Shown: positions 9,382-45,232 of the stretch, in pieces
Layout: each line of letters starts with the position of its first letter
Position numbering within the stretch: position 1 is the first letter of the stretch
Source of the DNA: Bradyrhizobium sp. AZCC 2262
Lineage (GTDB): Bacteria; Pseudomonadota; Alphaproteobacteria; Rhizobiales; Xanthobacteraceae
Reading direction: 5' to 3'
Assembly (NCBI RefSeq): GCF_036924535.1
Contig: NZ_JAZHRT010000001.1
Location: 5,456,001 to 5,520,000 of the forward strand
DNA: 64,000 bases
Program-made: the position numbers and the translations under genes
The notes under the pieces: model-generated
Seen by the model: only the letters and a program-made list of their open reading frames with translations
Told to the model about the DNA's origin: nothing
The model's database searches: none

Positions 9382-9495
9382 TGTCATTCGGCCTGCAATA
9401 TTGACCCCCTAAGCCGGGGGATCGGCGTCCAAAATTGACCCCCTACAGATTGATCTGTTGCGCTGCCTGCTTTGGAACGAAGCAGGTGGTGGGGG

Positions 9496-10967
9496 ATGCT
9501 GATCGTGGAGACGATTGCCCGGATCCGGCGCGAGCACTTCATCAAGGGCAAGACGATCAAGGAGATCGCCCGTGACCTGAAGGTGTCGCGGAACACGGTT
9601 CGGAAGGTGCTGAGGTCGGGAGAGACCTCCTTCGAGTACGAGCGGCAGGTGCAGCCGCGGCCAAAGCTGGGACGATGGGCAGTAGAGCTTGACGGATTGC
9701 TGGCGGCGAACGCGGCTAAATCGGCTCGTGAACAGCTGACGTTGATCCGGATCTTCGAAGAGCTGCGCGGCCGCGGCTATGACGGCGGTTACGATGCGGT
9801 GCGGCGTTACGCCAGACGGTGGAGCAAAGAACGCGGGCAATCGACCGCGGCCGCTTATGTCCCGCTGAGCTTTGCCCCAGGCGAAGCCTACCAGTTCGAC
9901 TGGAGCCACGAGGTGGTCTTGCTGAGCGGCACCACGGTGATGGTGAAGGCCGCCCATGTCCGGCTCTGTCACAGCCGCATGCTGTTCGTGCGGGCCTATC
10001 CACGGGAGACGCAGGAGATGGTGTTCGACGCCCACGACCGGGCGTTCGCCCTGTTCAAAGGCACCTGCACCCGCGGCATCTACAACAACATGAAGACCGC
10101 CGTAGAGACGATCTTCGTCGGCAAAGGCCGTCTCTACAATCGCCGCTTCCTGCAGATGTGCAGTCACTATCTGGTCGATCCGGTCGCCTGCACGCCAGCG
10201 TCAGGCTGGGAGAAGGGGCAGGTCGAGAACCAGGTCGGGCTGGTCAGGGAACGCTTCTTCACGCCGCGGCTGCGGTTCAAAAACCTCGACGAGTTAAACG
10301 CCTGGCTGCTCGACAAATGCATCGCCTACGCCAAGGCGCATCGCCATCCGGAGCTGGTCTGGAAGTGTTCGAAGCCGAACGCCCCAAACTCGTTCCCTAT
10401 GCCGGCCGCTTCGACGGCTTCCATGCGGTGACGGCATCGGTCTCGAAGACCTACCTGGTGCGCTTCGACAACGCAGCCAGCGCAGTCGGACGACCGGTCG
10501 AGGTTCAAGCCTATGCCGATCGCATCGTGATCCGTCAGGATGGCCGCATCGTTGCCGAGCACCCGCGATCCTTTGGCCGCGGCGAGACTGTCTACGACCC
10601 CTGGCACTATGTGCCGGTGCTCGCCCGCAAACCCGGCGCCTTGCGCAACGGCGCTCCGTTCAAGGACTGGGTGCTGCCGGCCGCGATCGAGCGGATCCGG
10701 CGCAGGCTCGCCAGCACCGATGACGGCAACCGGCAGATGGTCGACATCCTCAACGCGGTGCTGACTGACGGTCTGCCTGCGGTGGAAGCCGCCTGTGCCG
10801 AAGCCCTCGGTCATGGCGTCCATTCCGCCGATGTCGTGCTCAACATCCTGGCTCGTCAACGCGAACCCACCCCACCGGCCAACATCATGACGCCGGCCGC
10901 ACTGACGCTCCGCCATGCGCCGATCGCCGATTGTGCCCGCTACGACAACCTCCGGAGGACCATCTGA
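9496..10967 (+). pseudogene. istA: istA transposase of IS21 family, single-base frameshift
   Basis: Begins MLIVETIARIRREHF, the usual IS21 IstA N-terminus, with a helix-turn-helix (KTIKEIARDLKVSRNTVRKVL) and a DDE core (FDWSHEVVLL; GIYNNMKTAV; GWEKGQVENQVG). At 10361-10363 the frame breaks: the sequence reads TGGAAGTG where the family pattern W-E-V-F-E requires TGGGAAGTG, so one G is missing. The remaining 200 codons (EAERPKLVPYAGRFDGF onward) continue in another frame to a stop at 10967 overlapping the istB start. As read, no full-length IstA is made unless ribosomes slip. A sequencing error in a short G run is the alternative explanation. Confidence 0.85.
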
Positions 10968-11830
10968 TGGAACGAACCCAAATCTTCGACCTCATGGGCG
11001 AACTCAAACTCTACGGCATGAAGGCTGCCTTCGACGAGATCATGGCAACTGCCGTCAAGCGCCAGCACGAACCTCAGCGCATTGTCGGCGACCTGCTCTC
11101 CGCCGAGATCAACGAGAAGCAGGCCCGCTCGATCAAGTACCAGCTCACCATTGCCAAGCTGCCCCTTGCCAAGGACATCGCCGACTTCCAGTTCGAAGGC
11201 ACGCCGATCAATCAGACTCTCGTCAATGATCTCGCTGGCGGCGGCTTCATCGCCCAACAACGCAACGTCGTGCTGGTCGGCGGCACCGGCACCGGCAAGA
11301 CCCACCTGGCCATTGCCATCGCAAGAAGCTGCATCCGATCCGGTGCCCGCGGTCGCTTCTTCAACGTAGTCGACCTCGTCAATCGCCTCGAGACCGAGAC
11401 CCGCAACGGACGGCAAGGACGGCTCGCCGAGCATCTGACCCGGATGGACTTCATCGTGCTGGATGAACTCGGCTATTTGCCCTTCGCCCAGTCCGGTGGC
11501 CAGCTTCTCTTCCACCTCGTCAGCCGGCTCTATGAGCGCGCCTCCGTCATCGTGACCACCAATCTCGCATTCGGCGAATGGCCGACCGTGTTCGGCGACG
11601 CCAAGATGACCACCGCGCTGCTCGACCGGTTGACCCATCACTGCGACATCGTCGAGACCGGCAACGATAGCTGGCGGTTCAAAAGCCGAGACGACGATCA
11701 CGCCACCCGCGCTCGTCTCGCCTCCGCTATCCCGGCCAGCTCCGACGAGACGAGCGCTACCAGCAAACCCCGCCGCGCAAAGGGGTCAAAATTGGACGCC
11801 GATGAGGGGTCAAATTTGCAAGCCGATTGA
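10967..11830 (+). CDS. istB: IS21-family transposition helper ATPase IstB
   Basis: A 287-aa AAA+ ATPase that regulates IstA target capture. Walker A is [12 protein letters not shown] and Walker B is [12 protein letters not shown]; the region [15 protein letters not shown] is also characteristic. The start ATG at 10967 overlaps the istA stop (TGATG) and has GGAGGA 8 bp upstream, giving translational coupling. The last ~20 codons are encoded by the right terminal repeat of the element, ending two bases before the IS tip. It is intact, but paired with a frameshifted istA. Confidence 0.93.
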
Positions 11831-11832
11831 CA

Positions 11833-12384
11833 ACGGCGACGTGACATAGAGCTCGCACAAACCGAAACACTGGATACGCCAGAACCGCTATTGGCGCTGC
11901 AGTCGCAATCACCGCAATGCGCTGTTGGGCAGATTCGCCAACCGTGCGGCCGCCAATGCCGCCTGGCTGCGCGCGATCTCGTGCGCTCTGTGCGGTCCGC
12001 TCTTTCGGGATGCGCGATCTCGACCAGATGGCACACATTCACGGCCAGGAAATTCAGACGCCTGCTCAAGCCGTCTATCGGCAAAAGGTAAACTGCATGG
12101 GACCCCGGACTGCGGGCCGGCATCGCTTGTATGCTACTGAGCCGTAGCTGAGCAGTGGTGGTGCGACAGCCCACCAAGTGCCACGGTTTCCAAACCTAGT
12201 TTCGAAAAACACGGACATGCTCAACTGATTTGGCCAAAGTCGGCGCCCTGGCGACCATGGCCGCTACCTTCTATCAGTGTAGACCAACGGCGGCTTCGAA
12301 CGTTGGTGATAGCTGAGGCTGCAAAGGCTAATCGGCGTGAAGGACACCTTCTTAAAGATGCGCCCTAACTGTCAAACATCTGAG
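11833..12384. other. Intergenic, no confident gene
   Basis: This 552-bp stretch lies between the IS21 element and the CHAT operon. A minus-strand frame from 12038 contains a hydrophobic run (IAVIATAAPIAVLAYPVF), but no good start signal or recognisable family, and its end is cut by the IS. I regard it as probable debris of a membrane gene. Confidence 0.35.
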
Positions 12385-13677
12385 CTAGCGTCGTGCGACG
12401 GCCGCCACATACGCGCGCGCTGTTGCCGAAAGCTGTTCGCGACTAGCTGCGGCTAGCTCCTTCCTTTGTCTTTTTACGATCTCGTTGAACGTTATTGCCA
12501 TACTCTTGCCGTCAGGCCGTCTATCCGCGTGAACATTATCTTCTCCCGAAAGCAGCACATCGGCGATGGCTGCGCTCGCCGCCTCGAGCAGGGGGGCGGC
12601 GTCCTTACCACTGTTGCGCTCGATTTCCACACGCCGGGCCAGTGCAGCCTGCAATCCTATTTCTCCACTTTTCTTTTCTCTGTTTGGCTTGAATTGCGCT
12701 TCCCATTGTTCCCGCTTTACATCGTAGAGCTGCAGCATCGGTAGCCGATCCGTTTCTGTCAGCTCCGCCGATTGCAGTACGGCCGCTCGAAGTTCAATCA
12801 TCTCGGCTTCAGCGGCGTCAGGAGCGCCTTTGGCACGCGCAATTTTGTCGATGACGGCCAGCCAATGCGCGTGAAAAGGCAGTGCCTCTACGAGCGAGAA
12901 GGTGTCGTCTATCAGGGTCGACCGATGTTCGAAGGCCACCACAAGGTAGTCGACGTCGTCTATCGGAACATCTTTTCCGGCGGCACGGCGGATGAGCTGA
13001 CCGTCTTGCACGCGCAGCTCCTGAGGGTCGAGCGAAGGGTCTGCCGAGCCGGCCAGCAGACGATAGCCACTAGTCGCGATCGCGTTTCCGTCAAGACGCC
13101 CAAACCGGGTTTCAACTCCATCAATCGAAAAGATATTCATCAACCCGGAGGCAAAACTGTTTGCTGCCGTTGCCATGGGTCCGACAACCGGGCCGCCAAC
13201 TGCCGTAGCCGTTTTTGCGGCGAGGTCCAGTAGTCCGCGTACCAGATGGCTGTCCTTGAACCGGCAAAGCGACAGATACATTGTCACATCGGAGCCGGGT
13301 ACTGGCACGCTTTTGGCGACAATAAGATTTGCGAACGCGATCCGCTTGGCAGCGTCCGGTGGCGCGTTCGGACCGACCAGTCCGCGGATCATCTCCACCC
13401 CAGCGATGAAGGGGATAGTTCGCTTGTCCGAAGCTTGCTGGAAGCTTAAGACGCAGGTACACATCGGCAAGAATTCGATCAGATAGCGGCCTGCCGTCGC
13501 GAGCCGGAGTTCAATTAAGCGTACACTGAAATAACTCTTGCCCGCGACGAATTTTTCTCCGGCAAGCCCCGGTTCAGACCTCTCCGAGACGATCGGCGCA
13601 TAGATCTGGCGCAGATTAGGCCGGCCGCGGAATTCTGCACTGAGGGAGTCAACGATCGGCTGAATGGCACGCCACAT
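12385..13677 (-). CDS. Unknown 430-aa protein, last gene of the CHAT operon
   Basis: I recognise no family. The protein is mixed alpha/beta to about residue 150, then has a Gly/Ala-rich stretch (LAAKTATAVGGPVVGPMATA) that could be an amphipathic or membrane-active helix, and a charged helical C-terminal half (REQWEAQFKPNREKKSGEIG and EIVKRQRKELAAASREQL). There is no signal peptide. The frame opens with TTG at 13692 inside the CHAT stop codon, but the ATG at 13677 has GGAG 6 bp upstream and is preferred. It immediately follows the CHAT protease gene, the position often held by a protease's substrate or effector. Both substrate and pore-forming roles are inference only. Confidence 0.7.
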   Translation of the reverse strand: MWRAIQPIVDSLSAEFRGRPNLRQIYAPIVSERSEPGLAGEKFVAGKSYFSVRLIELRLATAGRYLIEFLPMCTCVLSFQQASDKRTIPFIAGVEMIRGLVGPNAPPDAAKRIAFANLIVAKSVPVPGSDVTMYLSLCRFKDSHLVRGLLDLAAKTATAVGGPVVGPMATAANSFASGLMNIFSIDGVETRFGRLDGNAIATSGYRLLAGSADPSLDPQELRVQDGQLIRRAAGKDVPIDDVDYLVVAFEHRSTLIDDTFSLVEALPFHAHWLAVIDKIARAKGAPDAAEAEMIELRAAVLQSAELTETDRLPMLQLYDVKREQWEAQFKPNREKKSGEIGLQAALARRVEIERNSGKDAAPLLEAASAAIADVLLSGEDNVHADRRPDGKSMAITFNEIVKRQRKELAAASREQLSATARAYVAAVARR

Positions 13678-13688
13678 GTTTTTCTCCG

Positions 13689-14495
13689 TCAATCATGATC
13701 AAGCAATACTGCCGCAGCCCACGCAGAATTGGCGACGTTGCCCATGAAGCAGGCGTTCTTATATGCGTCAGCGACGGACTCGCGTTGCTTCAGGCGTTCC
13801 TTGTAGAAATTTATCATAAACTCGGCCGCTGCCTTTGCCTGAACCTCGCACCGGAAGCCAAGCACGGCGATGCCCTTGGCGGCGTGCAGAAACCGGGCCG
13901 TATCCACGGAAATTCCCTGGCAAGCAGACAGAACGACCAGTTGGACCTCCTCGGGAAGCCAGGTCGCCAAAACCTCAACGGAGAGTCGTTCGACCTCGCC
14001 GAGGCGGCTGCTGGGAAAGATAAGTTCGGTGCTGCCGACTGTCGGCGATATGGCGTGGCCAGTGAAATGGATTATTTCCGGGGGCGGCTTGGAAGTGTCG
14101 GATAACCGATTCCGCAGGGCGTCTTTCAGACTGGTCTCCGCTGCGGGTTTCAACACTTCAAGCGAGCAGAACTTCGTGAGCCTTTCAAGTTCGTCTTGTT
14201 CTGCGGCCACGGCACTGGACAAATCGCGGAAGGATCGGCTCTCCAATTCACCGTTCAGGCCGATTACCTGCATGGCCCCTCGCGTCGCCGACGCGTCCAC
14301 GAAGAGCAGAACCGGTCGATCCGCGGCGTTCCGGTGTTCATGGGCCTTGCGAGGCTTCACCCGCCGCGCCATGGCCGTTATCCGGCAGAAAAAGCCCTGC
14401 CATGTCCCTTCCCGATTGAGAAGCTCAATTGGCATTGCGAACAAACTGGTTTCGTCTGGATCGATTTCGAACCGGAGGTCGACGGGCGGTGCCAT
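13689..14495 (-). CDS. CHAT-domain caspase-like protease
   Basis: A 268-aa protein that is almost entirely a CHAT domain (clan CD cysteine peptidase, separase/caspase-like). The catalytic dyad is recognisable as His in PEIIHFTGHA and Cys in LVVLSACQG. The domain's usual N-terminal strand with L-P-x-E-L-L appears as LFAMPIELLN, followed by RPVLLFVDAS and, near the end, ADAYKNACFMGN. CHAT proteases cleave partner proteins in bacterial conflict systems and signalling cascades. The start ATG at 14495 lies 71 bp inside the upstream receiver gene, with an in-frame TAG 15 bp before it, so it depends on coupling or a frameshift. No transmembrane segment. Confidence 0.85.
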   Translation of the reverse strand: MAPPVDLRFEIDPDETSLFAMPIELLNREGTWQGFFCRITAMARRVKPRKAHEHRNAADRPVLLFVDASATRGAMQVIGLNGELESRSFRDLSSAVAAEQDELERLTKFCSLEVLKPAAETSLKDALRNRLSDTSKPPPEIIHFTGHAISPTVGSTELIFPSSRLGEVERLSVEVLATWLPEEVQLVVLSACQGISVDTARFLHAAKGIAVLGFRCEVQAKAAAEFMINFYKERLKQRESVADAYKNACFMGNVANSAWAAAVLLDHD

Positions 14496-15180
14496 GATCT
14501 CTCGCGTCTACCAACGCGCCGCCGAATTCCTCAAAAATCGCACTGAATAGAAAATATCCCTTTTCTGCGAGACTGGTCCACGCTGTTGTTCGGTTTTCCA
14601 TATCGAACAGATGTTGCAGCTCATCTTCGCGCCAATTTCGCCGATAGCCTGCCTTGACGCTCAGCCGCAGGTTCTGAAAGAGACTAGCGTCTCCGATCTT
14701 GATATCGCAGACCGGTTCGGGTTGGCACAGCCGGATGACAGCCCGCAGCCGCCTTTTTTTGGACGGATCGAGAAGCAACGGAAGAAGATCCTCCAATTTG
14801 GAGTCTGTGTTGTCCCAATTCCAGACCAAAAGGTCGGAACGAAGAATCGTTTCGCGCGCCCAACCACTATCCGAGCGTGGTAAGGCAACGAGTATGGGGG
14901 CCCCCGCGCCAATTCGCTCAAGCAGTGCTGGTATCTCACGCAACGACTGCATTCCGTCACTTGGTGGCGTTTCCGGATCCAAGACTATCAAGGTTGGCCG
15001 AACTTCGCCTATCTGGACATGGGCATCCTTGAGGTTGAGAGATATCCTGATGCGCGGATTTACCAGCGGCAATCGGGTGTTCAAACGCTCGATTTCACTC
15101 TGCAGAAGCTTAGGTATCGTGCTGTCACCGCTGATCACGAGAATTTCGTGATCCCCACTGATTTTCGGATTAAGAGCCAT
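14425..15180 (-). CDS. Receiver-like protein with CHAT-associated C-terminal extension
   Basis: A 251-aa protein. Residues 1-125 look like a response-regulator receiver: EILVISGDST for the acidic pocket, PTLIVLDPETPPSDG with the candidate phospho-acceptor Asp, and PILVALPRSDS. The conserved lysine strand is not evident (LLVWNWDNTD), so it is degenerate. The second half (DIKIGDASLFQNLRLS to TSLAEKGYFLFSAIFEEF) resembles the segment that normally precedes a CHAT domain in the same chain. The last ~23 residues are Arg-rich and are read out of frame over the CHAT gene. The start ATG at 15180 has GGAGG 6 bp upstream and overlaps the end of the sensor gene by 11 bp. REC identity is moderately sure. 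Confidence 0.7.
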   Translation of the reverse strand: MALNPKISGDHEILVISGDSTIPKLLQSEIERLNTRLPLVNPRIRISLNLKDAHVQIGEVRPTLIVLDPETPPSDGMQSLREIPALLERIGAGAPILVALPRSDSGWARETILRSDLLVWNWDNTDSKLEDLLPLLLDPSKKRRLRAVIRLCQPEPVCDIKIGDASLFQNLRLSVKAGYRRNWREDELQHLFDMENRTTAWTSLAEKGYFLFSAIFEEFGGALVDARDHGTARRPPVRNRSRRNQFVRNAN

Positions 15181-17857
15181 GATCGACCTCCGAAACTAGC
15201 GGCAGGCGGATCTCCATGCGCGGCGTGCCCGAGTCCAGCTCTGCTCCGACAATTCGTCCTTTATGAGCGGTGATAATGATAGTTGCCGTCTGCAACGGTG
15301 CGCCTGGTTGCCCGCTCGGCTTATTCAAACGAGAGCCGGAGTTTTCGGCGTGCGGAAATGAGAATTTGATCACCGCCGCTCCCGCCCGCTGAAGCAGCGC
15401 AACATCGATAATCTTTCCGTCGACCCCATGATACTGGGCCTTGGCGAGAAAAAATGCGACAATGGCGCGAAGCGCTAGTTCGATGCGGCCGCCGTCACCC
15501 GATATAAACATGGGCTCGCGTGGCAGAACTAGCTTGATCCTGTCAGCGTCCCACTTAGGCAGAGCCTCATATAAATCGGAAAGCAGCGCGTTCAGCTGCA
15601 GAGGACAGCGGTCGCGCAGCGGCGTTTTACGAGCCTCGACGGATTCGGCGATCCGCTCATAGGTCAAGTCGGCCTTTTTTAGTTCCTCCACGGCACGCAA
15701 TGCCAAGTCGCTGTCAACCGCCCCTTCAGCTATTCGCTTGATGAAGGAAGCCGCCAACATTAAAGGCCCGCGCGCTTGCCGGGCCACTTCGCGGATGGTG
15801 CTTTCAATGAAGTGTGAATCATGCTGCCACTCATCGACGCGTAGATCGGTGAAAAGCCAAACCGAGTCACCTGTATCGGAATCCAAATCTCGCCTGGAGG
15901 CCAGAACGGCATTCCCGACTCCTCCTTCCAGCCCACAAACTCGAAGCGGTTGCCGCTCGACGATCGCGTGACTTGCGAGAACATTTCGGCTCTGCGTATC
16001 GGCACCGTAATCGCCAATCCTGCCCCATCCGGCGCGCGGACCTTTCAGTCGCAGCAATTCTTCTGCCCTTCGGTTAGTGCGCAGAATCCGGCCCCCACGG
16101 TCCGCCATGATCGTGCCCTGTTCGGTGGCATTTAATAGTGCCACGCTCCAGATCCGCTCGCTCAGCAAAGCCACCCTCTGCTCGAGATGGCGGGCAATTC
16201 TTTCGACCACGCGCTTGTCTTCGTTGCCGAACGCACGGGTGGTCAGTGATTCAATATCAAGCAGCCAACGAATCTCGCCATTCACCCGAACCGGCACAGT
16301 CATTGCAGAACGTCGAGGCTTGCAACCCTCCGGGGTTCGATAGTGGAAGAGCGGTTTACCGTCGGGGCCGAGCGCCTCGGTATCCTCGATTACGAGCGGC
16401 TCGCCCGCGAAAAAAGCCGCTCCCAACATTCCGGATTCCTCCGGGAGATCCGGGTCCAGAGGCTGCGAGTATCCCGGCGTGACGGCCAATTCGTGCAGCG
16501 AGCCGGATTCACTCAAGTTAGGGTACTGGCGCGCCAACAACGTGCGCTTGTCGGCAATGTCCGCAAAAAAAATCGCTGCATGATCCCACTGGAATTGAGT
16601 TACCAGGCGCTTCAGCAGCAAATCGGCGGCATCACCGGCATTTTGTGCCTTGATGATTTCATCACCAATTCGCCTTATCGCCGCATTGCGCTCGCGATCA
16701 GCCGCTCGCTGCAGCGTGGCCACGTAGGATTCTATGCGCAATGAGCTAAGTAGGAACAGCGTCTCGTCATCGAACGCAGCATTGCTGCGGCTACAGAGCG
16801 TGAGAACTCCGTCCGGGATACCGTGCGCGCCTATGGGCAGCACAAGTACTCCAGCTATCCCGTCGTCGACGCTGCGTCGCACGGTGGGATCTTCCAAAAG
16901 CTCGGGAAACCCTCTTATCGCCTCGTTCCAGTTGTTATCGATGTATGGCCCTTCGGCAACCTTTGCCCGACGCTCGGGTGGAACGTTAACCCAACGGTGA
17001 GGCCATGGCGTTTCTGGCTGGGGATGGACAAGCATTGAGCGAAAGCGTGTGCCATCTTCAGCGAACGCGCCGAAGATGGCGCGATCATGGGGCACGGCCT
17101 CGCGGAGCGCATCCAGCATCCCACGAAAATCACGCTCCCACCCATGGCCCTGATTGACTGCATTGCTGAGAGCATCGCGGTATTTTTCGTAACGGTCCCA
17201 TGAGATCACCGCGATTCGTCCTATGATATATTCGCCGGGACCAAAATCGGGCATCAGAAACAGCCGCGCCTTCGTAACTCCCTGGGAACTTTGCAGCGCG
17301 TCCGGCGCTGGCAAGACGCGTTCCGAACTTTCACGAGGATCGGTCGCAAACTCGCTAACTAAACCGACTCGCTCACTCACCGGAAATATATCCGGCAGTA
17401 GTCGGTCTATTATGTTTGCCCCAAGCGCACTTTGTGCTGCCTCATTGGCAAATAGCACGCGCCCATCAAATGACAGCCGCAGAACGGGATAGGGTGTAAG
17501 ATTGAATCGTTGTTCTTCCGCTTGGCGCGACGGCTTAAGGTCTGTGAGCACGACCAGCGTCGCCGACCGTTCGAGCACTCCGATTGCTTGAGCGAGAACA
17601 TGATTAGTCCGTTCTCTTATGTCGACGCTTTCCCCGACAAGAACGCGTTGTCCTTGGGTTGCCAGGTGTTCTGCTAAAGCTTCTCGGGAAATTCCGAATG
17701 TTTCCGACAGCGGTCGGTTCACGGCCGAGACGCAGAGGCGTTTCGCGGCCAGACTCGCGTCCAAGATAATGCCGTCGTCATTAACGAGAAGGCACGGCAG
17801 CGGCGAAGACAGAAGGTCTTCGGCAGCAATATCGCCCTGGACCATTAACTCCGGCAT
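15170..17857 (-). CDS. PAS/GAF sensor with degenerate histidine-kinase core
   Basis: An 895-aa soluble multidomain sensor. Residues about 10-110 and 120-210 look PAS-like (LPCLLVNDDGIILDASLAAK; YPVLRLSFDGRVLFANEAA). About 230-390 and 395-555 look like two GAF domains (IAGVLVLPIGAHGIPDGVLTL; AMTVPVRVNGEIRWLLDIES). A third PAS follows at about 560-640. Next is a dimerisation-like helix with VARQARGPL where active kinases have S-H-E-L-R-x-P-L, so the phospho-acceptor His is replaced by Arg. The ATPase-like C-terminus lacks clear N and G boxes (LALRAIVAFFLAKAQYHG). It is therefore probably a sensor pseudokinase, not a phosphodonor. It is the first full gene of the four-gene overlapping operon; AAAGG lies 9 bp before the ATG at 17857. 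No transmembrane segments, so it should sense a cytoplasmic signal. Confidence 0.8.
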   Translation of the reverse strand: MPELMVQGDIAAEDLLSSPLPCLLVNDDGIILDASLAAKRLCVSAVNRPLSETFGISREALAEHLATQGQRVLVGESVDIRERTNHVLAQAIGVLERSATLVVLTDLKPSRQAEEQRFNLTPYPVLRLSFDGRVLFANEAAQSALGANIIDRLLPDIFPVSERVGLVSEFATDPRESSERVLPAPDALQSSQGVTKARLFLMPDFGPGEYIIGRIAVISWDRYEKYRDALSNAVNQGHGWERDFRGMLDALREAVPHDRAIFGAFAEDGTRFRSMLVHPQPETPWPHRWVNVPPERRAKVAEGPYIDNNWNEAIRGFPELLEDPTVRRSVDDGIAGVLVLPIGAHGIPDGVLTLCSRSNAAFDDETLFLLSSLRIESYVATLQRAADRERNAAIRRIGDEIIKAQNAGDAADLLLKRLVTQFQWDHAAIFFADIADKRTLLARQYPNLSESGSLHELAVTPGYSQPLDPDLPEESGMLGAAFFAGEPLVIEDTEALGPDGKPLFHYRTPEGCKPRRSAMTVPVRVNGEIRWLLDIESLTTRAFGNEDKRVVERIARHLEQRVALLSERIWSVALLNATEQGTIMADRGGRILRTNRRAEELLRLKGPRAGWGRIGDYGADTQSRNVLASHAIVERQPLRVCGLEGGVGNAVLASRRDLDSDTGDSVWLFTDLRVDEWQHDSHFIESTIREVARQARGPLMLAASFIKRIAEGAVDSDLALRAVEELKKADLTYERIAESVEARKTPLRDRCPLQLNALLSDLYEALPKWDADRIKLVLPREPMFISGDGGRIELALRAIVAFFLAKAQYHGVDGKIIDVALLQRAGAAVIKFSFPHAENSGSRLNKPSGQPGAPLQTATIIITAHKGRIVGAELDSGTPRMEIRLPLVSEVDHGS

Positions 17858-17869
17858 CTACAATGCCTT

Positions 17870-18043
17870 TCAACTCAACATACGATCCATTACAAGTTGA
17901 GCACCTAGTAGAATACCTACGGAGACGAGCCCGATCCGCCTGAACTTGGCGCGCTGCTGCGTCGAGCCATTATTTTGCGGATCGAGCGGCGTAAAATCGA
18001 TCGCCAGCAGAATCGAGACACCAGCTGTAGAAGAACAACACGC
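17870..18043 (-). pseudogene. Fragment of a small membrane protein upstream of the sensor operon
   Basis: The minus strand encodes IDFTPLDPQNNGSTQQRAK followed by a basic turn and a hydrophobic helix (IGLVSVGILLGAQLVMDRML), ending at a stop 12 bp before the sensor gene. The composition is protein-like, but no ATG, GTG or TTG precedes it in frame after an upstream TGA, so the 5' end is missing or frameshifted. It could be a decayed first gene of the operon. Confidence 0.35.
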
Positions 18044-18734
18044 TAGCCCGTCTGCCTATCACTCCCTTGGTCTGCCCCTTCTGAACGTTTCGTTTGGCTC
18101 GTCACAAGATTTCTTCTTACTATCTCTAATAATATCGCGTTTGGAATACACGTAATGTGAGGGAGTTCACATTCGATGGGGAATGACCACGATTGAGAGG
18201 CGGAAATCAGCGAGGCAACGCGAAATACGCTCGCTCCGGTTGCGATAGGACTAGTATCGCCCTAGCGATTGTCGCCTCACGTGCCGCCATTCCATCACCG
18301 TTTGCAATGCGACTTCTCGTAGCTCACGAGTTTCTAATGGCTCAACCCCTATTCACGCGCACACCAATCAGAGTTCTTTTTGATCCAACGCACCGCAACT
18401 ACTTCCGTGACGAATTCGTCGCGCTGCTGAACTGGATCGACTAACACGCCTATGGCGATCTAGTCGGCCAGCAAGCGGAGCGAGCCAGCGCCAATCTTCA
18501 CAGAGTGGAGACCGTCAACGGGCGGCGCTGGCTTGGTCCAGCAATTCCAAGGAGGCAGGGAGACTGAGATCACATCCGATCCGCTGGTCGGGAGATGACC
18601 CCGCTTGTTACCGCCTGCCAATCTCTTCATCCGCCGCACCGATGCGTAGGCCGCTGAAGCACTGTAAAACGGTTCGCATTCAACTACGAATTGCTCGGGC
18701 TATCTGCTCGCCTCGCCCGCACATCCAAACCCGT
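18044..18734. other. Intergenic, no confident gene
   Basis: Nearly 700 bp upstream of the sensor operon. A plus-strand frame (18193..18444) ends in a stretch that continues after a stop codon with plausible composition, suggesting an old gene remnant, but nothing recognisable. The operon promoter should lie near 17900-18150; I see no convincing consensus. Confidence 0.3.
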
Positions 18735-18920
18735 CAACTGATAAGCTTTCGTATGAAACCTTATCAGTCAGCCAACTGACTCCGTTTGTGTAATTACCTT
18801 ATCAGTTGGACAACCGACTCCATTTGCGACCAAGCCTTATCAGGTCAGCAAACTGACCAGCTGACTACATTTCTACTCTTTGCTTATCAGTGCGCCGACC
18901 GAACTCTAATTTCATGAAAT
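18735..18920 (+). repeat. 38-bp repeat array B, left part (4 units plus inverted half-unit)
   Basis: Units start at 18760, 18798, 18836 and 18883. The first, second and fourth are exactly 38 bp; the third carries a 9-bp insertion (47 bp). The common core is CTTATCAGT and then (A/C)AAC(T/C)GACTCC(G/A)TTT. The block 18735..18759 (AACTGATAAGCTTTCG) is the reverse complement of a unit's spacer and head, so the array is led by an inverted half-unit. The right end is the IS3 insertion site. Confidence 0.88.
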
Positions 18921-18981
18921 AGAGCCGGTTCCGGTTGTCTGAACAGATTCTCCGCGTCGATAAGTGGAGCCTCTGCCGGGG

Positions 18982-19809
18982 TTAGGCCGCCGCGCGGAGC
19001 GGCGGAAGGTTGAAGTAGGCTTGATCCGGGGTCATGTCGTCAAGACTCGAATGAGGACGTCGGCCGTTGTAAAAATCGAGATACCGGCCGATCGAATGTC
19101 GCGCCTCGCCGACGGTTTCGTAGGCCCGCAGATAGACCTCCTCGTATTTGACGCTGCGCCATAGCCGTTCGACGAACACATTGTCCCGCCAAGCCCCTTT
19201 GCCGTCCATGCTGATCGCGATACCATTGCTGGCGAGCAAGCCGGTGAACGCCGCGCCGGTGAACTGCGAGCCCTGATCGGTGTTGAAGATGTCCGGCTTG
19301 CCGTGACGGGCCATCGCATCCTCCAGCGTCTCGACGCAGAACGCCGCCTCCATGGTAATCGATACACGGCATGACAGCACACGGCGGCTGAACCAGTCGA
19401 GCACCACGGCGAGATAAACGAAGCCGTGTGCCATCGGGATGTACGTGATGTCCATCGCCCACACCTGGTTGGCCCGCTCGATCGCCAGACCGCGCAGCAG
19501 ATACGGATGGATCTTGTGCCCCGGTTCGGGCTTGGTGGTGCGCGGACGGCGATAGAGCGCCTCTATCCCCATCCGCCGCATCAGCGTCTTCACATGACGG
19601 CGGCCGATCTTGCACCCCTGCAAAGCCAGCAGGCCTCGCAACATACGCGAACCGGCGAAGGGATACTCCAGGTGCAGCCGATCCAGATGCCGCATGATCG
19701 CGAGGTCGGCGGACAACACCGGACGCGGCAGATAATAAACACTGCCGCGGCTGATCTTCAAAACTTCCGCCTGCTTGGTGATCGACAGATCATGTCCACG
19801 GTCGATCAT
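18982..19809 (-). CDS. IS3-family transposase OrfB (DDE integrase)
   Basis: A 275-aa catalytic subunit. An N-terminal HTH_21-like region ([19 protein letters not shown]) precedes an rve integrase core with the DDE residues in [22 protein letters not shown] and [19 protein letters not shown], and the C-terminal ending [15 protein letters not shown]. Full length for the family. The start ATG overlaps the orfA stop (ATGA); a programmed shift may also yield an OrfAB fusion. Intact. Confidence 0.95.
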
Positions 19810-20114
19810 CGCTTTGCGCTCAGCAATCCCGCCTTGGTGAGCGCTCCTTCTAAAAAATCGTTCTCCAGCGTCAGCTCCCCGATCTTGGCATGCAGCGACT
19901 TCACATCGACTGCAGGTGCTGCCGGCGGCCCGCCCCCAGGTCCGAAAACCTCCGAAGCATTGCCCTCAAGCTGCGATTTCCACGCCGTAATCTGATTGGG
20001 GTGAACGTCGAAATGCTCAGCCAGTTGGGCTATCGTCCGGTCGCCCTTGATGGCTGCCAGCGCCACCTTCGCCTTGAAGGCCGCTGAGTGATTCCGGCGG
20101 GCTCGTCTGCTCAT
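19806..20114 (-). CDS. IS3-family transposase OrfA (helix-turn-helix)
   Basis: A 102-aa DNA-binding subunit with the HTH_Tnp_1 signature RRNHSAAFKAKVALAAI, RTIAQLAEHFDVHPNQIT and a leucine-zipper-like tail (LHAKIGELTLENDFLEGAL). It recognises the element's ends and dimerises with OrfB. GGAGAG precedes the ATG at 20114. Intact here; the second copy at 44779 has one extra G in this gene. Confidence 0.95.
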   Translation of the reverse strand: MSRRARRNHSAAFKAKVALAAIKGDRTIAQLAEHFDVHPNQITAWKSQLEGNASEVFGPGGGPPAAPAVDVKSLHAKIGELTLENDFLEGALTKAGLLSAKR

Positions 20115-20204
20115 GGTCTCTCCTGATTCGCAGGCCTATCGTGCCCGCCGTCAGGCAGAAACTCCACTTATCGTCCCGTTCAGATTTCCGGAACCGGCTC
20201 TAAT

Positions 20205-20381: not shown

Positions 20382-23300
20382 TCACTCCGCGTTGTAGGTG
20401 GGATGAGCAATCCAGTACTCGATGTTCCGTTGGAAATCACCTATCAAGCGTAGAAGCTTGCCACCAGGCTCGACACGCGGGTTAGGGACTCCCGCCCCAA
20501 GTAAGAAGTTGTTTTTCCTCCAACCCCCACCAGCAAGGATACCTGTCTCGCCGTGACCCCACCCCGACAGGTGAAAAACCTCTGCACCAACGTGAACCGG
20601 ACCAACTGACACCTCTGGTCCGGTGCCCATGCCGGCCATTAGCCCTTCTTCACGATCGTAAGTGCCGAAAAAGGAAATCTTGGCCGCCACGTCAACTGGT
20701 ATGCCTTTGACTAAAAGGTGCTTTGTGCCGATCGTAAAGTCGCGGGAAGCTATTCCGCCGGATTTGGACATTTTACCAAACAGAGATTCAGAGCCAGCAA
20801 TTGGTACGTAAACGCCGCCACCGCCAGACTCACTTTTGTTCTCGCGAAAGTACAATGCAAATATTGTTGGTGGAGGGACGGTGACAATGGTCCAACTATC
20901 GTCTGTGAAGTAGCGCTCATCTATTTGGCTCTCAAATGGACTGGTGCCATCAGAGTCGCCATATCGTATTGGATTGCCCCACCCGAAACCATAACTTGCT
21001 AGATTCTTCGGAGTATAGACCCCGCCGTGGTTTCTACCCCCCAAATAATCATGAAGTATGGGATCCGGCCGTAGCCAGACTGCAAGGTTGTTGTCATAGA
21101 ACCGCGCACCAAAATCCTGCAGACCACTTTCGTCCTGCTCCTTGGCGTTGAAGCGATAGCGCGGCAGCCCCGGCCAGGCGTGGTTGGTCGTGCCATCCTT
21201 GTTGCCCGCGAGCAACGTTTCGCGCTCGTGCAATACTTGCCCAAAGGCTGCGTATTCCTGCTGCCCGTTCAAACGCGCTGTTTCCGCTTTGCCTGGTGAG
21301 CCTACTACGACATCACTCACGTTCCTGGTCAGCAGTTGTGCGTGATAGGTGAACATCCGTTCATCGCCAACCCATTTGGAAGCGACACGCAGTGGTCCGG
21401 CAAAGTAATGCATAATCGCCTGCGGGGCCTGTCCTTCCCGGCGGGAGATCGTCAGCTGTGCATCCGCATAGAGGGTATCGGACACGAACGGTTCGCCGAC
21501 AACCTTGTCCTTGCCGTTGACCTTGCGAATATGCTGCTCAGTCAATTTCTTATAGGATCGCTGCCCGCTTGCATCGTATTCCGACTGGACGTGGTCGTAG
21601 TAGATGATGGGCTTGTTCGCGCCATCCGTCTTGGACTTCGGCAGCCGTTCCGAGGGAGTTTGGACGATCTGACTGCGCAACGAATCATCCACGTTCCAGT
21701 CAAAATAGCGGTCCGGCCGGCAACCTTTCTTGTCCGGCCGGTCACACAGGCTGGCCGTCATGCGGCCGAAATCGTCAAAGCCGAATTTAGTGATCTCCCG
21801 GAATTTGCCCTCATCATGGAACGTATTGACCTTTCCGGGTGCGTGGCGGGGATCGCCGTCCGACGTATAGACGGAGGTGAACGTCGCTGTGGTTTTCTCT
21901 ACAATTTTGCTTTCTTCCGACGTCTTTGTCGCCGGCTTGGTGACCTCGACAGCACGCACCTCTGCCCGCCGCTGCAGCGCCATTTCATGGGTCGGATAGA
22001 AGGCAAATGTCTCATCAAAATCAGCCGTCAATTTCGGCGCCTTGGCGATCTCGGTGTCGTCAAGCAGATTGGGTTCGCCTTCCCTGTCGGTACGCTTGGT
22101 GTGCAGACTGGTTAGAGACTTTTTCGCAGCGCGGATTCGATTCGACTGATCGTACGAGAAGCTATTTTGGGAATTGCTTATCAGGAGACCGTGGCGTTGC
22201 GCGACAAGCGGCGGGATGGCCTCGCTGCAACCGATCTCCGGAAGCGGCAGCGTGCACGGCTCCGCGATGATCGGCTTGTTGTTGTAGGCGAGCACGTTGC
22301 CGGCAGCATCGTAGCGATAGTCCACGTTCTGGAAATAGATGCGCGGCACATCGGCCAACGGCGAACCCATTCGGGCCATCGACGACATCAGCCTGTTCGA
22401 TTTCTCGTCATAGGAATGACGAACACCTACTCCAGTCGCGTAATTCATGCTGAGCAGATTGCCCCGGGCATCGTACATCATGTCCGAAGCGATGGCAGTG
22501 AGCGGCGATTTCGCAGCCCCAGGACCTGGATTCGAGCCGGCAAGAACGTCCAGCAATTGGCCAGCCGAATTGTAGCGGTATTCCATGCTTTCGCTGATGT
22601 TGGCCGCCGGAGGCTTTGGCTTCCCGGTCGCTGCCTTGCCGGGAACCTTGATGCTGAACGTCCGCGACTTATGCGGCCCCCACAAATCGAAGCTGTCCTC
22701 CACGACCAGCGTCGAATAGCGGCCATCGTCGAGCGACATTGCGTCGAGCTTGCTGAACTCGCGCTCGCTCCGAACGGCACGGCCCAGGGCATCGAAGCTT
22801 TTCGTCTCCATGCCCACCATATCAACCGTCTTGTAGGGGCGGCCTACCCTATTCTGCTTCCGGTTCTCTTCCGAAGGCTTGCCGTCGTCTTCCGAGCCCT
22901 TGCCGTATTCGATCGCGATTTCGCGCTTGGCGGCGCGTTCGACATCATCCTTGTCCTTGCTGTCCGAGCTGAATAATTTATAGGTCGTTTTGCGCGGCAG
23001 GTTGACGATGAAGTCCGTGCGCACCACGCGGCGGAGATCGCGTTCGCTGTGCGGCGCATCCTTGCCCGTCTTGGGATCACGACAGGCGCTTTTCGCCATT
23101 TCCTCGAAGTCGAGTTTGGGGCGGTCCGGCTCAGACAGCGTACCCCTGCGGGGGCCACTGTAAGTACACATTGAGTTGCTAGACAGATCCATCACGATGC
23201 GTTCGAACCCACGGTCAGGATCGTCAACCAGAACTCGTCGGCCGAGCGCATCATAACCGACTAGGATCGCGTCGATTTTCTCGCCGACTTCCGTTGACCG

Positions 23301-26300
23301 GCGTGGCAACCTAATGGCGACAAGCTGGCCCAGCGCATCTCGATCGTAGCTCGCCACGGAACGATTGCTGGCCAGCGCAAACGGCTGCGCGCGTGCAGGC
23401 AGGCAGGCATAGATCTGTTGTTTGCCATCGCGGGCAATCACGTCCGCGACAAGTTTCGAGTTCGGCAGCATTCCCGGAGGATTTGAGCCTTCCGCCGCTG
23501 AAACTACCTTGTGAACCGTAGTCGTCTCATAACTCTCAACCACACCTCGGATGGCGCCCCGAACGTCGCGCTCAATCGCCGACGGTGCGCAGAGTGCGTT
23601 CCGCATGCTCGTGCGATGACGGAGAATGGGATTCGCCGGATTCTCGGATGGCTCGATCGCATATTGCAAGTCATAGCCGTTGCCATCCGGCAGTTGAACC
23701 GTCAGCGGACGGTCCAGTCCGTCGAACGAAATCTGGTTTCGACCAACCTCTGTCGCGAGAAGGCCCTGCTTCGCCAGATTGATGGTGGGCCCATTCGGGT
23801 CAGTCACGGGATCCGGGTCAACTGTCAGCGAAACAGGATAGGCGTCGCTGACCGGACGATTGATCCGGTCCTTCCTGACGACGCCACTGGCCGAATAGTT
23901 ATCCTTCTCGTCACATGCCGCATCGGAAAATCCGGCCAAGCGCTTGCATACCGACGCTTCCACAATCGACTGCACGGCGACACCGAACTGATCGAAGAAC
24001 ATCTTGGACAGCAATGCCTTGTTGGGCAGGTCACTATAGGCCTGGCTGTCGACAAAGCGTGTAATGATCGCTGACGGAGGCGAAACAACCAGGGCGGGAT
24101 TCCCGTATGCATACGCAGCAATCTGCGTGAAGGTCATGCCGGTGGTGAGATTGGCATTCAGACCGGCGCATTCCGCACCGCAGGATGGCCCGGCAGCCTT
24201 CCAGCTGACCAGAGCCTTGGTCGGCCGCGCAAGCTGGTCGAGCGGCACGTAGGTCGCATTTCTGTTGACGTCGATCGAGACCGTTGCGACCGCATGACGA
24301 TAGTCCAGCGCAGCTCCATAGGAGTTCAGACTGCCGAGTTGGGGTTTGCTGCCCGAGAGGCAGATCGTGGACCCCTTGTATGCTCCCGAAGGCCCGCAGT
24401 GTTCGGTCCGTTCGGCCGTCTCGATAAGGGATATGTACGGATCAAAGCTGTAAGCCTTGGCCGCGTACGTCTTGCCGGACCCGATTGGTCCCACATATCT
24501 GACAAGATTTCCGAATTCATCGTAGTTGTAGGCGCGCATGACCACGCCAGCTCGCGCGGCCTGTTCAAGACTAAAGGTCAGCTCAGGAAAATGACCAGCC
24601 CGAGCACACGGATCGTTGGTCGAACCGGCGTCAAGAAAGTGGCAGAGCGTCAGGACCGTGCCGGTCTGGGTATCGTTCGACGCAGTCCGCCGGCGGAGAA
24701 GCCGGCCATCTCCGTCTAGTTTGTCGGGCGCCGCGTCGAATCCGGACGTGATGTTGTCGCGAACAAGCTTGCCCGATCTGTCGCTGATGAGCACCTCCTT
24801 GATACGATTGCGCTGCTCGACGAAGATGGTTCCGCCACCCGTCGCACCATGGGTAAAGCGCGGCCGCACGGTGTCGTCGTAGACGACGTCCGAGCAAACC
24901 GTGCCCCTGGTATGCAGCACGACGCCGGGACCTTCGAGAATTTCACCCAGATCGCAAACGCGACGCGGCCTCGCCGCATCGTCGAGATTGTACTGAACTG
25001 CCGTGCGGAGCACACGGCCCTTTGCGGCCTCGCCTTCGGCCGTCTCGCGTACGATCTGCACCAGGACAGGCGTGAGGCGTCGCGGGCCGGTGTCAAACAC
25101 GGATTCGATCGTGCTGTGCGTTTCCGTTTCAGCCGGGAAGGTTTTTCTGCAACCCAGTTGCTCAACGGAGTCTTGCTGGTCATCGTGGGCGAGGTAAACA
25201 TTCCGTACGAGGCCCAGTGCCAAAAGCTTCCTGTCCACGTCCGTCGGCTGGACATGCCGCAAGTGATGACAAACGACTCGCGCAGGGTTGGAGAGCGCGG
25301 TGTCGACCAAAACATAATCCTGGCGGAGCGTACGCCGTGGCTCATTGCCAGTTGTACCTTGCGAGATGTCGTAGACGCGCTCCTCCACCAGCAGACCAGC
25401 TTCGAAGATGGATCCATTCGCATATCGGCGTTCGGTCCGTCTGACGCCGGCAATTTTCACAGCCCATTCCCGGTCGGCCACTTCGATCGGAGTGCGGGCG
25501 TCGGAGTTGCATCCCTCGACCGTGTATACGCCACTATAGCCTACGAACTGTCTCTCGAAGCGATCGTAGCGGCCGTCGGCGTAGGAAAAACACGTGTGAC
25601 GACTGTTGTTGCTGACGTCCGCCGCATCATCTTCCCCGACACCATCGCGCGCCGTTACGCGTGCAATCACCCACCGGTGGTTCGGGTCCTGGACTGTTCG
25701 CGATGTCCGGGCATAAGCGAACTCAAGGTTGGCCTTTGCCTGATCGCTCGAAGGATTGGTTGGCAACCAGACGCGCTCGAGCAGCCCATGCTGGCCAAGC
25801 CGGTTTGCCACGACCGTGGCATTCTCGCGCGAGAACTTGAGCTTGAGGCTGGTTGGCCCCTGCAAAAGACTGTCGCCGACAATGAAATCCGACAGACCGT
25901 CACCATCGGCGTCACGAAAAACGATGCTTTGTCGCGTCAATGCTCCGCTTAGACCAGCGTTGGGGTTGATGTGGAAGCAGACCGGAATTGGGTAAAGGCA
26001 CGTGGACCATGTGTAAGCGCCGCCGGCAGCAGCATTGTCGGTTTCAGAGCGGCCAAACGTTCCGGAGTTGAGTGCCGCCGCTTTCCCCAGTTCAATCACA
26101 TCAGTAAACCCCCAACCCGTGTTCAATCGGGCTTTGATCTGGGAGTTTTCGCCAATCTCCAGAATGTCGATCAGACCGTCACCGTTGACGTCAGCCATGG
26201 TCCGGTATTGATCGCCGGTCGCAGAGCTGGCCGCAAGTCCTCCTTCCATGGAGTTGTCATTGAGAGGAAACGCGAACCCGAGCGTCAGCCCGAGGCCGAG

Positions 26301-29300
26301 ATTCCGTGATCGTTCACCGAAGAGGGCGAGCCTGTCGACTTCGATCTCACTGCCGTCAAAACCATTGCCGAGATTCAACCTGACCTTGAACTTGCCGCAA
26401 GTGTATTCACTCCCTGCGTCGACGCATTGCACGATATCAGGCAGACCATCGCCGTTGACATCCATCACGTCTCTTATGCGGTCTCCCTCCGCAACTTTCC
26501 TGTCGACATTGATGTTGAGCGGGAAAAAGGATTCCTGGCTGTGTTGCCCCTTGTCGTTCGAAGAGGTGCCTCCGCTCGAACTCGTAAAGGCTGCACGCGC
26601 GGACGCGACAGCGATTTCCGCCGATTTTTTTGCCGACGGAAAGCCGAACGATGTCCCGTCGGTCTGGTTGCCCGATTTTCGCAGGGGCGACGCTGGATAT
26701 GCCATGGCGCTGTTGCATGCATGGGTACGGGCCCATGGGCTGGTCGGCGCACAGCGATTTCCACCGCGGGCGTCGGTCGCTATGACCGTACCGCCAGCCA
26801 CGAGGTCGGGAAATCCGTCGCCGTTAAGATCGATGGCATCCTGATCACTCGACGTTTTACTTTTCGATGTCGAGACACCCGCCCCGAAGTCGGCGAACAG
26901 CGTCTCAAGCTTCGTATCCGATCGTTTCGAGGTCGCCACTAGCCCGACACCACGAGTCGGCGAAGATATAATCCGCAGATTCGACCTGTCACGATATGCA
27001 TCGTACGCGACGAGTTTCGAACCAAAATGCAAATCCTTTGAACCAAGCCTGCTCGCGGATATGTACTCTCCGAATGTCCAGATCGCCTGATCGCGGCCCG
27101 TGAGGCATAGGCTTGGAAAGCCCCCATAGGTTCCCGCAGCCGCCGCGAGGCTCGCGTTATCGCGGGCCCATGTGCTTTTCACTTCAAGTGCAGGGCCGTT
27201 GGACTTGGCGTTCTTGACGTCTTCGGCGGGTTCACCTTGGGTAACTCTCGATTTTTGCGGGAGAGTCTGAACCGGAGGCCATTGACAGGCGTGGGCAAGG
27301 TCTACGGTTGCCGCAGCGCCGCTGGCGGTCGCGGGCCCTGTCGTACCCGATTTGTCAACGAGGCTTGCCTTGTCCGCTCTCGCGGTCACAGTTTCGCGCC
27401 CGGCTCGGAATTCCGGGACGAGCGCGAATGCTGCCGCGTCTCGGTGTTTCCTGCCGCTGGCTTCGGCTTTTTTCAGGTCCAGGTAGTCCCTTTCATAGGG
27501 AAGGTTTCTCAAAGCATTCACGAGCGACACGAAGCTAGGCAGGCTCGCTAAGGCGTTTGCATTGTCGAGCGGTGCATTTGCCGGATTCTTTGGGAATCCC
27601 GGGAACGAATCGGGCAGCACCGGATCCTTGATGTCCCATTCGCTGGCACCAGCCGGTGCGTCGGCCCGGTGACGAATTGCAGAGACGGCGACGGATCTCG
27701 TGGTGATCGTTTCAATCGGCAGTCGTCCGCGTGGCGAAATTGCCGCCTCCGGCGAAACCTTCAGCCGATGCGCGATAGAGAGCGCGGTGGGCCCTGCTGT
27801 GAATTGCGCGTTGCCGGCAGCGTTCAACTCAGCGAGCAGGATTCTGGCCGGGCCGAGCGGACACACATTATCATTACCCCGGCTTAACGGTACATTGGAG
27901 TTGTCGTCTTCCGATGGATCGAGCTTGCCAAATTGATCCGTGGGCAGCTTGGCGCATGGCGCGGCGCCGAGCAGACGATCAAGCTGGTCTCCCAGGCTAC
28001 GAGCTGAAAGTCCGTCGGCGATCCGATCGTCGATCGCCGTTTCCAACACAATCTCCTCATCCTCGGCGGCACAGACAGCGAAGCCAGCGTGGCTCGATGG
28101 AAGTTCATGGACGCGGTATTGGCTCGGATTCCCGCCGGCTTTTCGCTCTTCACTGAAATTCGAGAAAGTCGTTGTACCGGTGACGCCGCGCACAAATCGC
28201 AGGTTCTGCGCAATCAACTGCTGCGGCTCGCGATGGTCGTAGAGCAGCTCAGGTATCGTGCCCGGAACGGGATCGGGCGTTTCGACAAGCGCTCCCGGAG
28301 AAAGAGCCCGGGTCCGCTTTGTGAACAGGCCGGCGCCACCCGGCGTTCCGGGCGGAAACGGTTCGAACACGGCGAAACGCTTTACGGGTAGTTCCCGTGC
28401 CTTACCGTCCCGCCAAGCGAGCACCCTCGTTCTCAGCTTCGCAACTCGCTCGCCCAGCCTTTGATCAAGCCTTGCGGGATCAACGTAGTTTTCGCCCAAG
28501 ACGGATGGATTAGGCTCCGCTGGGCCGATCCCTCGAATCTCCAGCGCAAAGCGCCGTTCATAAAGGCGATTCCCCGCCTCGTCCTGCTGCTGGCCCCACA
28601 CACAGGATTGCTTGGGAGCGTTTACTCCAGGCGATACGGCCAGGCGCGGCAAGAACGCAGCGCGGCGCGGATTTTCCGATCTGACAGGAGTTGCCCTGGT
28701 CTGGCCGGGCGGGGGCGGTGGAACCGGATCGAGCAGGTGCCCGAAGTTTGCCACGCTCGCCGGCCCGTTCTGAATATGCGGGACGGCAAAGAGCTTTCGC
28801 GAACCTTGCCGGCACTCCCAAACTGTTTCGTTTGGATTTGCACTCGGCTCGGCCTTGCCGTCTTCGCCCAAAGCGGGCCTGTCGCCCAATGGTCCAATGC
28901 ATTCCACCGGAGGATAGGGCGCAGCCGGATTTTCGCCTCGATCGGCATCTTTTGGAACAGGCGCCAACTCAGTGTTGTAGCTAAGCGCAAGCGGACCATC
29001 GCCAGCGATCCTGAATCCCGCAGCGTCAATTGGCCAATATCCGAGCGTCGCATCTGCATCGGGATCGCGGCTGTCATTTGGCGCCTTGCTGCGGACGAAC
29101 AGACAGATCTTGTCCCCTGCCCTGATGTCGAGCTCGTTGCCGAGCCGACCGCAATCAGCCGGGTTGGCACGTCTGTTCGCGCGCGTGTCACATTTGGTTT
29201 CCAAGCCCGCCTGACCAAGCCAGCCGCTCTTCAGAATTCTGTATCGGCCGGCATCTGGCGCCATTTCGGTCATGAGCGCGGACGTGGTCGAAGATAGATG

Positions 29301-44691: not shown

Positions 44692-45232
44692 AGAGCCGGT
44701 TCCGGAAATCTGAACGGGACGATAAGTGGAGTTTCTGCCTGACGGCGGGCACGATAGGCCCGCGAATCAGGAGAGACCATGAGCAGACGAGCCCGCCGGA
44801 ATCACTCAGCGGCCTTCAAGGCGAAGGTGGCGCTGGCAGCCATCAAGGGCGACCGGACGATAGCCCAACTGGCTGAGCATTTCGACGTTCACCCCAATCA
44901 GATTACGGCGTGGAAATCGCAGCTTGAGGGCAATGCTTCGGAGGGTTTTCGGACCTGGGGGCGGGCCGCCGGCAGCACCTGCAGTCGATGTGAAGTCGCT
45001 GCATGCCAAGATCGGGGAGCTGACGCTGGAGAACGATTTTTTAGAAGGAGCGCTCACCAAGGCGGGATTGCTGAGCGCAAAGCGATGATCGACCGTGGAC
45101 ATGATCTGTCGATCACCAAGCAGGCGGAAGTTTTGAAGATCAGCCGCGGCAGTGTTTATTATCTGCCGCGTCCGGTGTTGTCCGCCGACCTCGCGATCAT
45201 GCGGCATCTGGATCGGCTGCACCTGGAGTATC
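44692..45232 (+). mobile_element. 3'-truncated IS3-family copy
   Basis: It begins with the terminal AGAGCCGGTTCCGG at 44692 and is nearly base-identical (reverse complement) to the intact element's end and orfA/orfB start at 20201 downward. The differences I see are one T-to-C change and one extra G in orfA. It breaks off after the codons for LHLEYP of orfB at about 45232, where unrelated sequence begins. No second end is present, so adjacent deletion or recombination removed the rest. Confidence 0.88.

Follow-up and report, generated by a model that had tools for sequence, protein, structure and literature searches.

We describe a three-gene cassette on the minus strand of a 64,000-nucleotide stretch of the Bradyrhizobium sp. 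AZCC 2262 genome (contig NZ_JAZHRT010000001.1, positions 5,456,001 to 5,520,000; this whole stretch is called the window below). It encodes a PAS/GAF sensor that by its sequence is a pseudo-histidine kinase, a protein joining a receiver-like domain to a CHAT cysteine protease (REC-CHAT), and a partner protein of no known family. The cassette is real and conserved: sensor, REC-CHAT and partner occur in that order and on one strand at 13 of 13 loci in the genus, the window included. On balance we favor the view that this mobile cassette as a whole converts an internal signal into proteolysis, and we regard it as a candidate protease-triggered effector system whose input is new and whose effector may represent a new family.

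Gene organization of the cassette

Four minus-strand open frames lie at 12385..17857 of the window. The sensor frame (895 amino acids) shares 11 bp with a frame of 251 amino acids, which in turn shares 71 bp with a frame of 268 amino acids; the partner begins 11 bp past the CHAT stop if started at the ATG at 13677, or overlaps the CHAT frame by 4 bp if started at an upstream TTG. These frames, coordinates and spacings agree with an earlier sequence-only reading of the window, which took them for an operon of four overlapping genes. We rejected the four-gene operon because receiver and CHAT protease are one gene, making three in all: in B. erythrophlei GAS478 (locus L003), the sole relative found in the named genome collection, the same block, at 92% DNA identity across the cassette, consists of a sensor (895 amino acids), an uninterrupted REC-CHAT (496 amino acids) and a partner (435 amino acids). 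No sigma-70-like site was found in 17700-19000. The features of the cassette are as follows.

12358..18179, no strand assigned: whole cassette, the sole block in which the window and the 21-kb L003 region are homologous (E≤1e-10)
17858..18179, no strand assigned: upstream stretch common to the window and L003, probable control region
15170..17857, minus strand: sensor, a pseudo-histidine kinase as judged from Pfam, H-box columns and Protein Data Bank (PDB) profile matches
13689..15180, minus strand: one REC-CHAT gene, split here, for a receiver-like domain and a CHAT cysteine protease (unsplit in L003)
14425..15180, minus strand: 5′ half-frame, 251 amino acids, receiver and linker; the final residues, past the frameshift, are out of frame
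14483..14491, minus strand: difference of one net base from L003 at which the frame is lost (DNA alignment; REC-CHAT profile matches on either side)
13689..14495, minus strand: 3′ half-frame, 268 amino acids, the half of the CHAT protease that carries the His (HFTGHA) and the Cys (LSACQG)
12385..13677, minus strand: partner and proposed effector, no known family, 430 amino acids from the ATG (435 from the TTG at 13692)

The REC-CHAT gene is split in the window

Alignment of the window with L003 showed that one net base differs close to 14483-14491. On the upstream side of this site the window aligns to profile residues 3-227 of REC-CHAT and on the downstream side to residues 229-496 in a different frame, so we interpret the 71-bp overlap as a frameshift within one gene. 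REC-CHAT is a single open frame at 11 of the 13 Bradyrhizobium loci, the exceptions being the window, with one split, and G242, with several breaks. The G242 copy (L027:5546-10805) appears to be decaying, with both its sensor and its REC-CHAT in several broken frames and its partner still open.

The ratios of nonsynonymous to synonymous substitution rates (dN/dS) relative to L003 were 0.16 and 0.10 for the 5′ and 3′ halves of the split gene, 0.24 for the sensor and 0.09 for the partner. Both halves have thus been under purifying selection, so the break either happened recently or is an error. Searching the DNA of the window genome revealed no further copy of the REC-CHAT gene. With regard to a programmed frameshift, no relative is split at the window frameshift site. 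Because its protease gene is frameshifted, the window copy of the cassette may be dead or only recently broken; it is probably off, recently inactivated or mis-sequenced.

The view that the strain carries a normal fused gene and that the frameshift arose wrongly in sequencing or assembly has a substantial, though less than even, chance of being correct. It is favored by the purifying selection on both halves and by the involvement of a single net base. Against it, the genome is a single contig of 9.48 Mb, and substitutions relative to L003 surround the site, which is not what a plain run-length slip would look like, although ordinary divergence could explain them. We consider it very improbable that the half-frames are a genuine split pair, as the sequence-only reading held, with receiver and protease made separately by reinitiation at an ATG in the overlap. 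An ATG at the junction does open the CHAT frame and both halves look conserved, but the gene is uninterrupted over the site at 11 genus loci, the other broken one has several breaks, and the N-terminal part of the CHAT fold is missing from the 3′ frame. Database relatives of REC-CHAT also speak against a split pair, being 484-509 amino acids long in 9 of 11 cases and 370 and 372 in the others; that search considered candidates of at least 0.55 of the query length, so that separate halves could not have appeared in it.

Distribution and mobility of the cassette

A partner alignment search found the partner in 13 of 265 genomes of the genus. The REC-CHAT profile, run over 257 genus genomes, gave some match in 56, mostly to the CHAT part alone, and the matches that spanned the profile (complete in 11 cases, in two halves in the window and in pieces in G242) came from the same 13 genomes that carry the partner. 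Copies may have been missed, because both searches scored six first-look candidates per genome; even so, the co-occurrence of REC-CHAT and partner in the genus exceeds chance. Identity of the cassette proteins to the nearest query falls to about 24-30% among the genus loci. The loci read comprised 12 flanking regions (11 from the genus and that of a weak hit, G441), G005 and the window.

The order sensor, CHAT protein and partner is found also on plasmid pTH2a of Rhizobium sp. TH2 and on an 83,752-bp IMG/VR contig, where it stands just past an integrase-like frame and ahead of bacterial genes (named by eye). The same genes thus stand together elsewhere, and the outcome that would have told against the sequence-only reading, their absence from every other genome, does not apply. 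Outside the genus, and leaving its own genome aside, the partner gave one weak match among 397 genomes of the order, one match among 385 of the class and two, one of them weak, among 398 of the phylum. The weak matches in G441 and G1029 (E 1.5e-5 and 6e-5) were dropped from the counts, as no cassette genes were seen there.

Since homology between the window and L003 is confined to 12358-18179, its three genes appear to have been transferred together. A purely mobile picture is weakened by the G005-clade loci L004 and L020-L023, which by eye seem to share flanking genes. Pairwise distances of the three cassette proteins correlate at 0.987-0.995 over 13 loci (the window and L027 excluded), a correlation that co-inheritance alone could also produce. 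We rejected tRNA-linked insertion, as ARAGORN found one tRNA, a tRNA-Gly in L024, among 15 loci.

The sensor has lost the histidine of the H-box

The sensor contains a PAS domain (amino acids 118-160), a GAF domain (409-561) and a second PAS domain (573-605), followed by a dimerisation-helix-like region in which VARQARGPL at amino acid 691 is the equivalent of the H-box, and by a degenerate HATPase-like C-terminus. Twelve sensors were aligned, excluding the broken L027 and those of L035, L045, L055 and L056. All 12 matched the PAS and GAF models of Pfam, and none matched HisKA or HATPase (HATPase_c). The phospho-accepting His is absent in 12 of 12, the column holding Arg (nine), Ala (two) or Gln (one); in an alignment with the sensor protein 3a0r, VAHEIRNP of that protein falls opposite VARQTRAP. 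ATP-binding motifs were not seen in the aligned sensors by eye, and the sensor profile matched histidine kinases in the PDB weakly, including their C-terminal part. Because the H-box His is replaced and there is no HisKA or HATPase match, we call the sensor a pseudo-histidine kinase, an assignment made from sequence.

The CHAT dyad is intact and most receivers retain the aspartate

The CHAT half-frame matches Pfam PF12770 (E 1.2e-14; 54.9 bits against a cut-off of 24), and both HFTGHA and LSACQG are present in it. In an alignment of 19 REC-CHAT relatives (L022, L027, L035, L045, L055 and L056 excluded), PF12770 was matched by all 19 at E≤0.1, and the dyad residues H371, G374, H375 and C420 are invariant in 19 of 19, so the recognisable His/Cys dyad of the sequence-only reading holds. 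The receiver region has the (beta-alpha)5 order of elements in a structure model of the L003 relative, and its profile matches response regulators in the PDB. Together, the Pfam matches, PDB profiles and model bear out a PAS/GAF sensor and a receiver fold ahead of the CHAT domain.

The further proposal that the two-component input has been stripped of its phosphotransfer chemistry survives for the sensor, where the His is lost in every aligned sequence, and is not fully borne out for the receiver, in which the phospho-acceptor Asp is retained in 15 of 19 sequences (Asn in one, Gly in one and a gap in two) while the usual Lys of strand 5 was not seen by eye.

The partner is a candidate effector of no known family

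The partner has no family match in Pfam, NCBIfam or PADLOC, and Foldseek against the PDB returned nothing at E≤0.001. Its structure model suggests a C2-like beta sandwich with an amphipathic helical hairpin insert (amino acids 144-184) and a helical C-terminal part; among the matches listed, the predicted fold resembles C2 domains and not gasdermin, although the absence of gasdermin from those matches does not exclude a gasdermin fold. In a PDB sequence search Csx30 did not match the partner profile. Comparison of the partner with viral proteins gave one match, a Hokovirus protein (E 1.6e-4) whose TM-score of 0.30 makes it uninformative, and phage records contained no match to the window partner (E 1e-5) or to its Pseudanabaena relative (E 1e-3). 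The lack of Pfam, NCBIfam and PADLOC matches and the patchy distribution led us to reject a housekeeping enzyme. The partner is thus, as the sequence-only reading supposed, a dedicated neighbor without a known family that recurs with REC-CHAT.

A partner alignment search of a protein database gave 20 matches among the 7995 candidates with the most shared words, and partner relatives are seen in four phyla (Pseudomonadota, Cyanobacteriota, Chlorobiota and Bacillota). We read six loci in which a relative lies outside the cassette. The one in Pseudanabaena lies between genes for a caspase-AAA protein and a caspase, in a cluster with MoxR, VMAP-C and EAD10, and the one in Sporomusa follows a C1 peptidase. 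In G1143 the relative is preceded by an nSTAND1 NTPase and by a protein in which CHAT-like motifs can be seen by eye and which has no significant match by Pfam or the REC-CHAT profile. The relative in G998 comes after a protein that by eye carries a GDSGA motif and that has no protease match in Pfam or the PDB. No protease was recognised beside the relatives in Prosthecochloris and G1356; in the latter (L043:7461-10181), a partner-like N-terminal part is embedded in a 906-amino-acid protein without any Pfam match. A neighboring protease is therefore firm at two of the six loci, motif-based at two and not found at two, these being raw counts. Because its relatives recur beside proteases of unrelated folds, we consider the partner family a good candidate for an effector that, like gasdermin, is triggered by a protease.

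Exchange of effectors and proteases, and defence neighbors

In two further genomes of the genus, G124 and G135, a sensor stands with a relative of REC-CHAT and without a detectable partner; both sensors also lack the H-box His by eye, and the receiver part of the G135 protein is weakly similar. The next genes in G124 code for a lipase of LCAT type (PF02450, E 9e-15) and for a second CHAT protein, which has the ternary-complex domain TCAD7. Convergent neighbors in G135 encode a metallo-beta-lactamase (MBL)-fold protein matching LmuA (E 4e-55) and Avs1a (5e-37) and an S8 subtilase. As seen by co-localisation, the cassette belongs to a set that exchanges proteases and effectors, and this exchange makes both cleavage of the partner and a role in defence more likely than the sequence-only reading, which proposed them, could know.

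Other company points the same way. A frame matching Gabija GajB (L028:106-1056, E 8e-108) lies ∼4 kb upstream of the L028 cassette, and a subtilase and a DrmC-like protein lie in the vicinity at L035. The GajB-like frame is overlapped by a second frame (932-1978) and by eye is a broken gene (L028:106-1978). Searched against PADLOC-DB 2.0.0, the four window frames matched no known anti-phage system beyond a weak match of the sensor to PDC-S02 (E 0.042). A defence role would accord with the neighbors in G135, L028 and L035 and with the plasmid and viral-contig copies, which are the observations that suggest it.

Proposed mechanism and alternatives

In the mechanism that we propose, the PAS/GAF sensor, viewed as a histidine kinase derivative, would respond to a small ligand, a redox change or an infection cue through a conformational change, and its pseudo-kinase end would contact the N-terminal receiver-like domain of REC-CHAT and free or oligomerise the CHAT protease. 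Given the loss of the kinase His, activation may not involve phosphotransfer, or may draw on the receiver Asp in no more than a vestigial way. The protease would then cleave the partner, whose C2-like, hairpin-bearing N-terminal part may act on the membrane to cause dormancy or death. Because relatives occur with other effectors and other proteases, the cassette looks like a new protease-triggered defence or cell-death switch. A fuller version of this reading is tentative, a plausible proposal that we would put at less than even: a new class of death or defence switch in which a phosphotransfer-free pseudo-kinase contacts receiver-CHAT and triggers C2-like membrane effectors, gasdermin-like and of independent origin, with an effector family that spans four phyla beside interchangeable CHAT, caspase, papain-like and possibly trypsin-like proteases.

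It is unlikely, though somewhat conceivable, that the partner is instead an adaptor or scaffold whose C2-like domain brings a sensor-protease complex to the membrane, the true substrate lying elsewhere in the cell as in SAVED-CHAT cascades. In favor of this, membranes or partners are what C2 folds usually bind, the large G1356 protein contains a relative of the N-terminal part, and every genus genome in which the REC-CHAT profile was spanned also carries the partner. An adaptor fits poorly with G124 and G135, where the pair lacks a partner and effector-type enzyme genes adjoin, and with the partner relatives that stand beside unrelated proteases. Slightly less likely still is an ordinary regulatory or stress pathway with a proteolytic output, for example for envelope stress in soil, whose patchiness would reflect niche genes. 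PAS/GAF sensors usually read redox or small ligands, and in one Bradyrhizobium clade the cassette apparently occupies the same chromosomal place (by eye). The patchy occurrence in 13 of 265 genomes of the genus, the copies on a plasmid and a viral contig and the defence-typical neighbors in G135, L028 and L035 argue against such a pathway.

Comparison with known systems

Bacterial gasdermin is a protease-activated membrane effector with exchangeable proteases. The logic proposed here is the same as that of gasdermin with a caspase-like or CHAT protease; the partner differs in being C2-like among the matches listed and in having no family match. SAVED is a cyclic-nucleotide-sensing input that switches CHAT proteases, and in SAVED-CHAT cascades the protease acts on a further protease. 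In place of the SAVED input of SAVED-CHAT (PDB 8tl0), the cassette has a receiver-like domain and a separate PAS/GAF pseudo-kinase. Two-component systems resemble the cassette in that a PAS/GAF sensor adjoins a receiver-bearing output protein; the cassette differs in the missing H-box His (12 of 12), the missing HisKA and HATPase matches and the protease output.

CHAT proteases are also switched by TPR/CRISPR complexes, according to two reports (PMC9729208, PMC9935389). Craspase, made of Csx29 (TPR-CHAT) and Csx30, is TPR-borne and triggered by Cas7-11 RNA recognition, and the cassette differs from it; the partner profile did not match Csx30 in the PDB sequence search. Nuclease-protease pairs, each a protease with its proenzyme effector, move together between the sensing modules of Hachiman, AVAST, Lamassu and DRT, as one study states (PMC12799240). 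The LmuA/Avs1a-like protein and subtilase beside the G135 sensor/REC-CHAT pair are similar to these; the pairs described in that study combine a trypsin-like protease with an MBL-fold nuclease, whereas the cassette combines CHAT with a C2-like protein. For VMAP/MoxR/STAND conflict systems, two papers describe receivers without histidine kinases as potential effectors or switches (PMC7159879, PMC8195603), and one of them reports finding no histidine kinase domains among the effectors associated with vWA (PMC7159879). The Pseudanabaena partner relative, in its VMAP-C, MoxR, caspase and EAD10 cluster, resembles such systems; the cassette differs in that a pseudo-kinase sensor adjoins the receiver protein. 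Sulfur bacteria are reported to have REC and TPR-CHAT genes near each other and not fused as here (PMC5108060), and LypABC, a trypsin-like protease/NLR-like system, is a distant parallel (PMC13236601). Searches of the open literature, outside which subscription journals and most preprints fall, turned up no description of a pseudo-kinase/REC-CHAT/partner cassette among the titles and abstract openings listed.

Flanking elements of the window

Two insertion sequence (IS) elements, with family names assigned by eye, lie outside the system.

9472..11830, plus strand: IS21-family element, downstream flank
18982..20114, minus strand: IS3-family element, upstream flank

The IS21-family element has one other 99%-identical place in the genome, which is 28 bp longer, and the window copy has apparently undergone a short deletion. 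By eye, a similar IS21-family element directly adjoins the sensor/REC-CHAT pair of G135 (L056:1002-3382). Positions 19661-20201 and 44692-45233 form an inverted 542-bp repeat (99.6%) whose two arms probably represent incomplete copies of the IS3 element. Upstream of that element, 20382-33716 on the minus strand is one frame of 4444 amino acids for a giant protein of SpvB/RHS-repeat type by eye. Elsewhere in the window, 1412-2514 is a tandem array of 3.0 copies of a 369-bp unit with 99% matches.

Significance

If the proposed mechanism is true, a dead histidine kinase together with a receiver would be a further input for CHAT proteases, and the cassette would show two-component parts turning into phosphorylation-free signalling parts.

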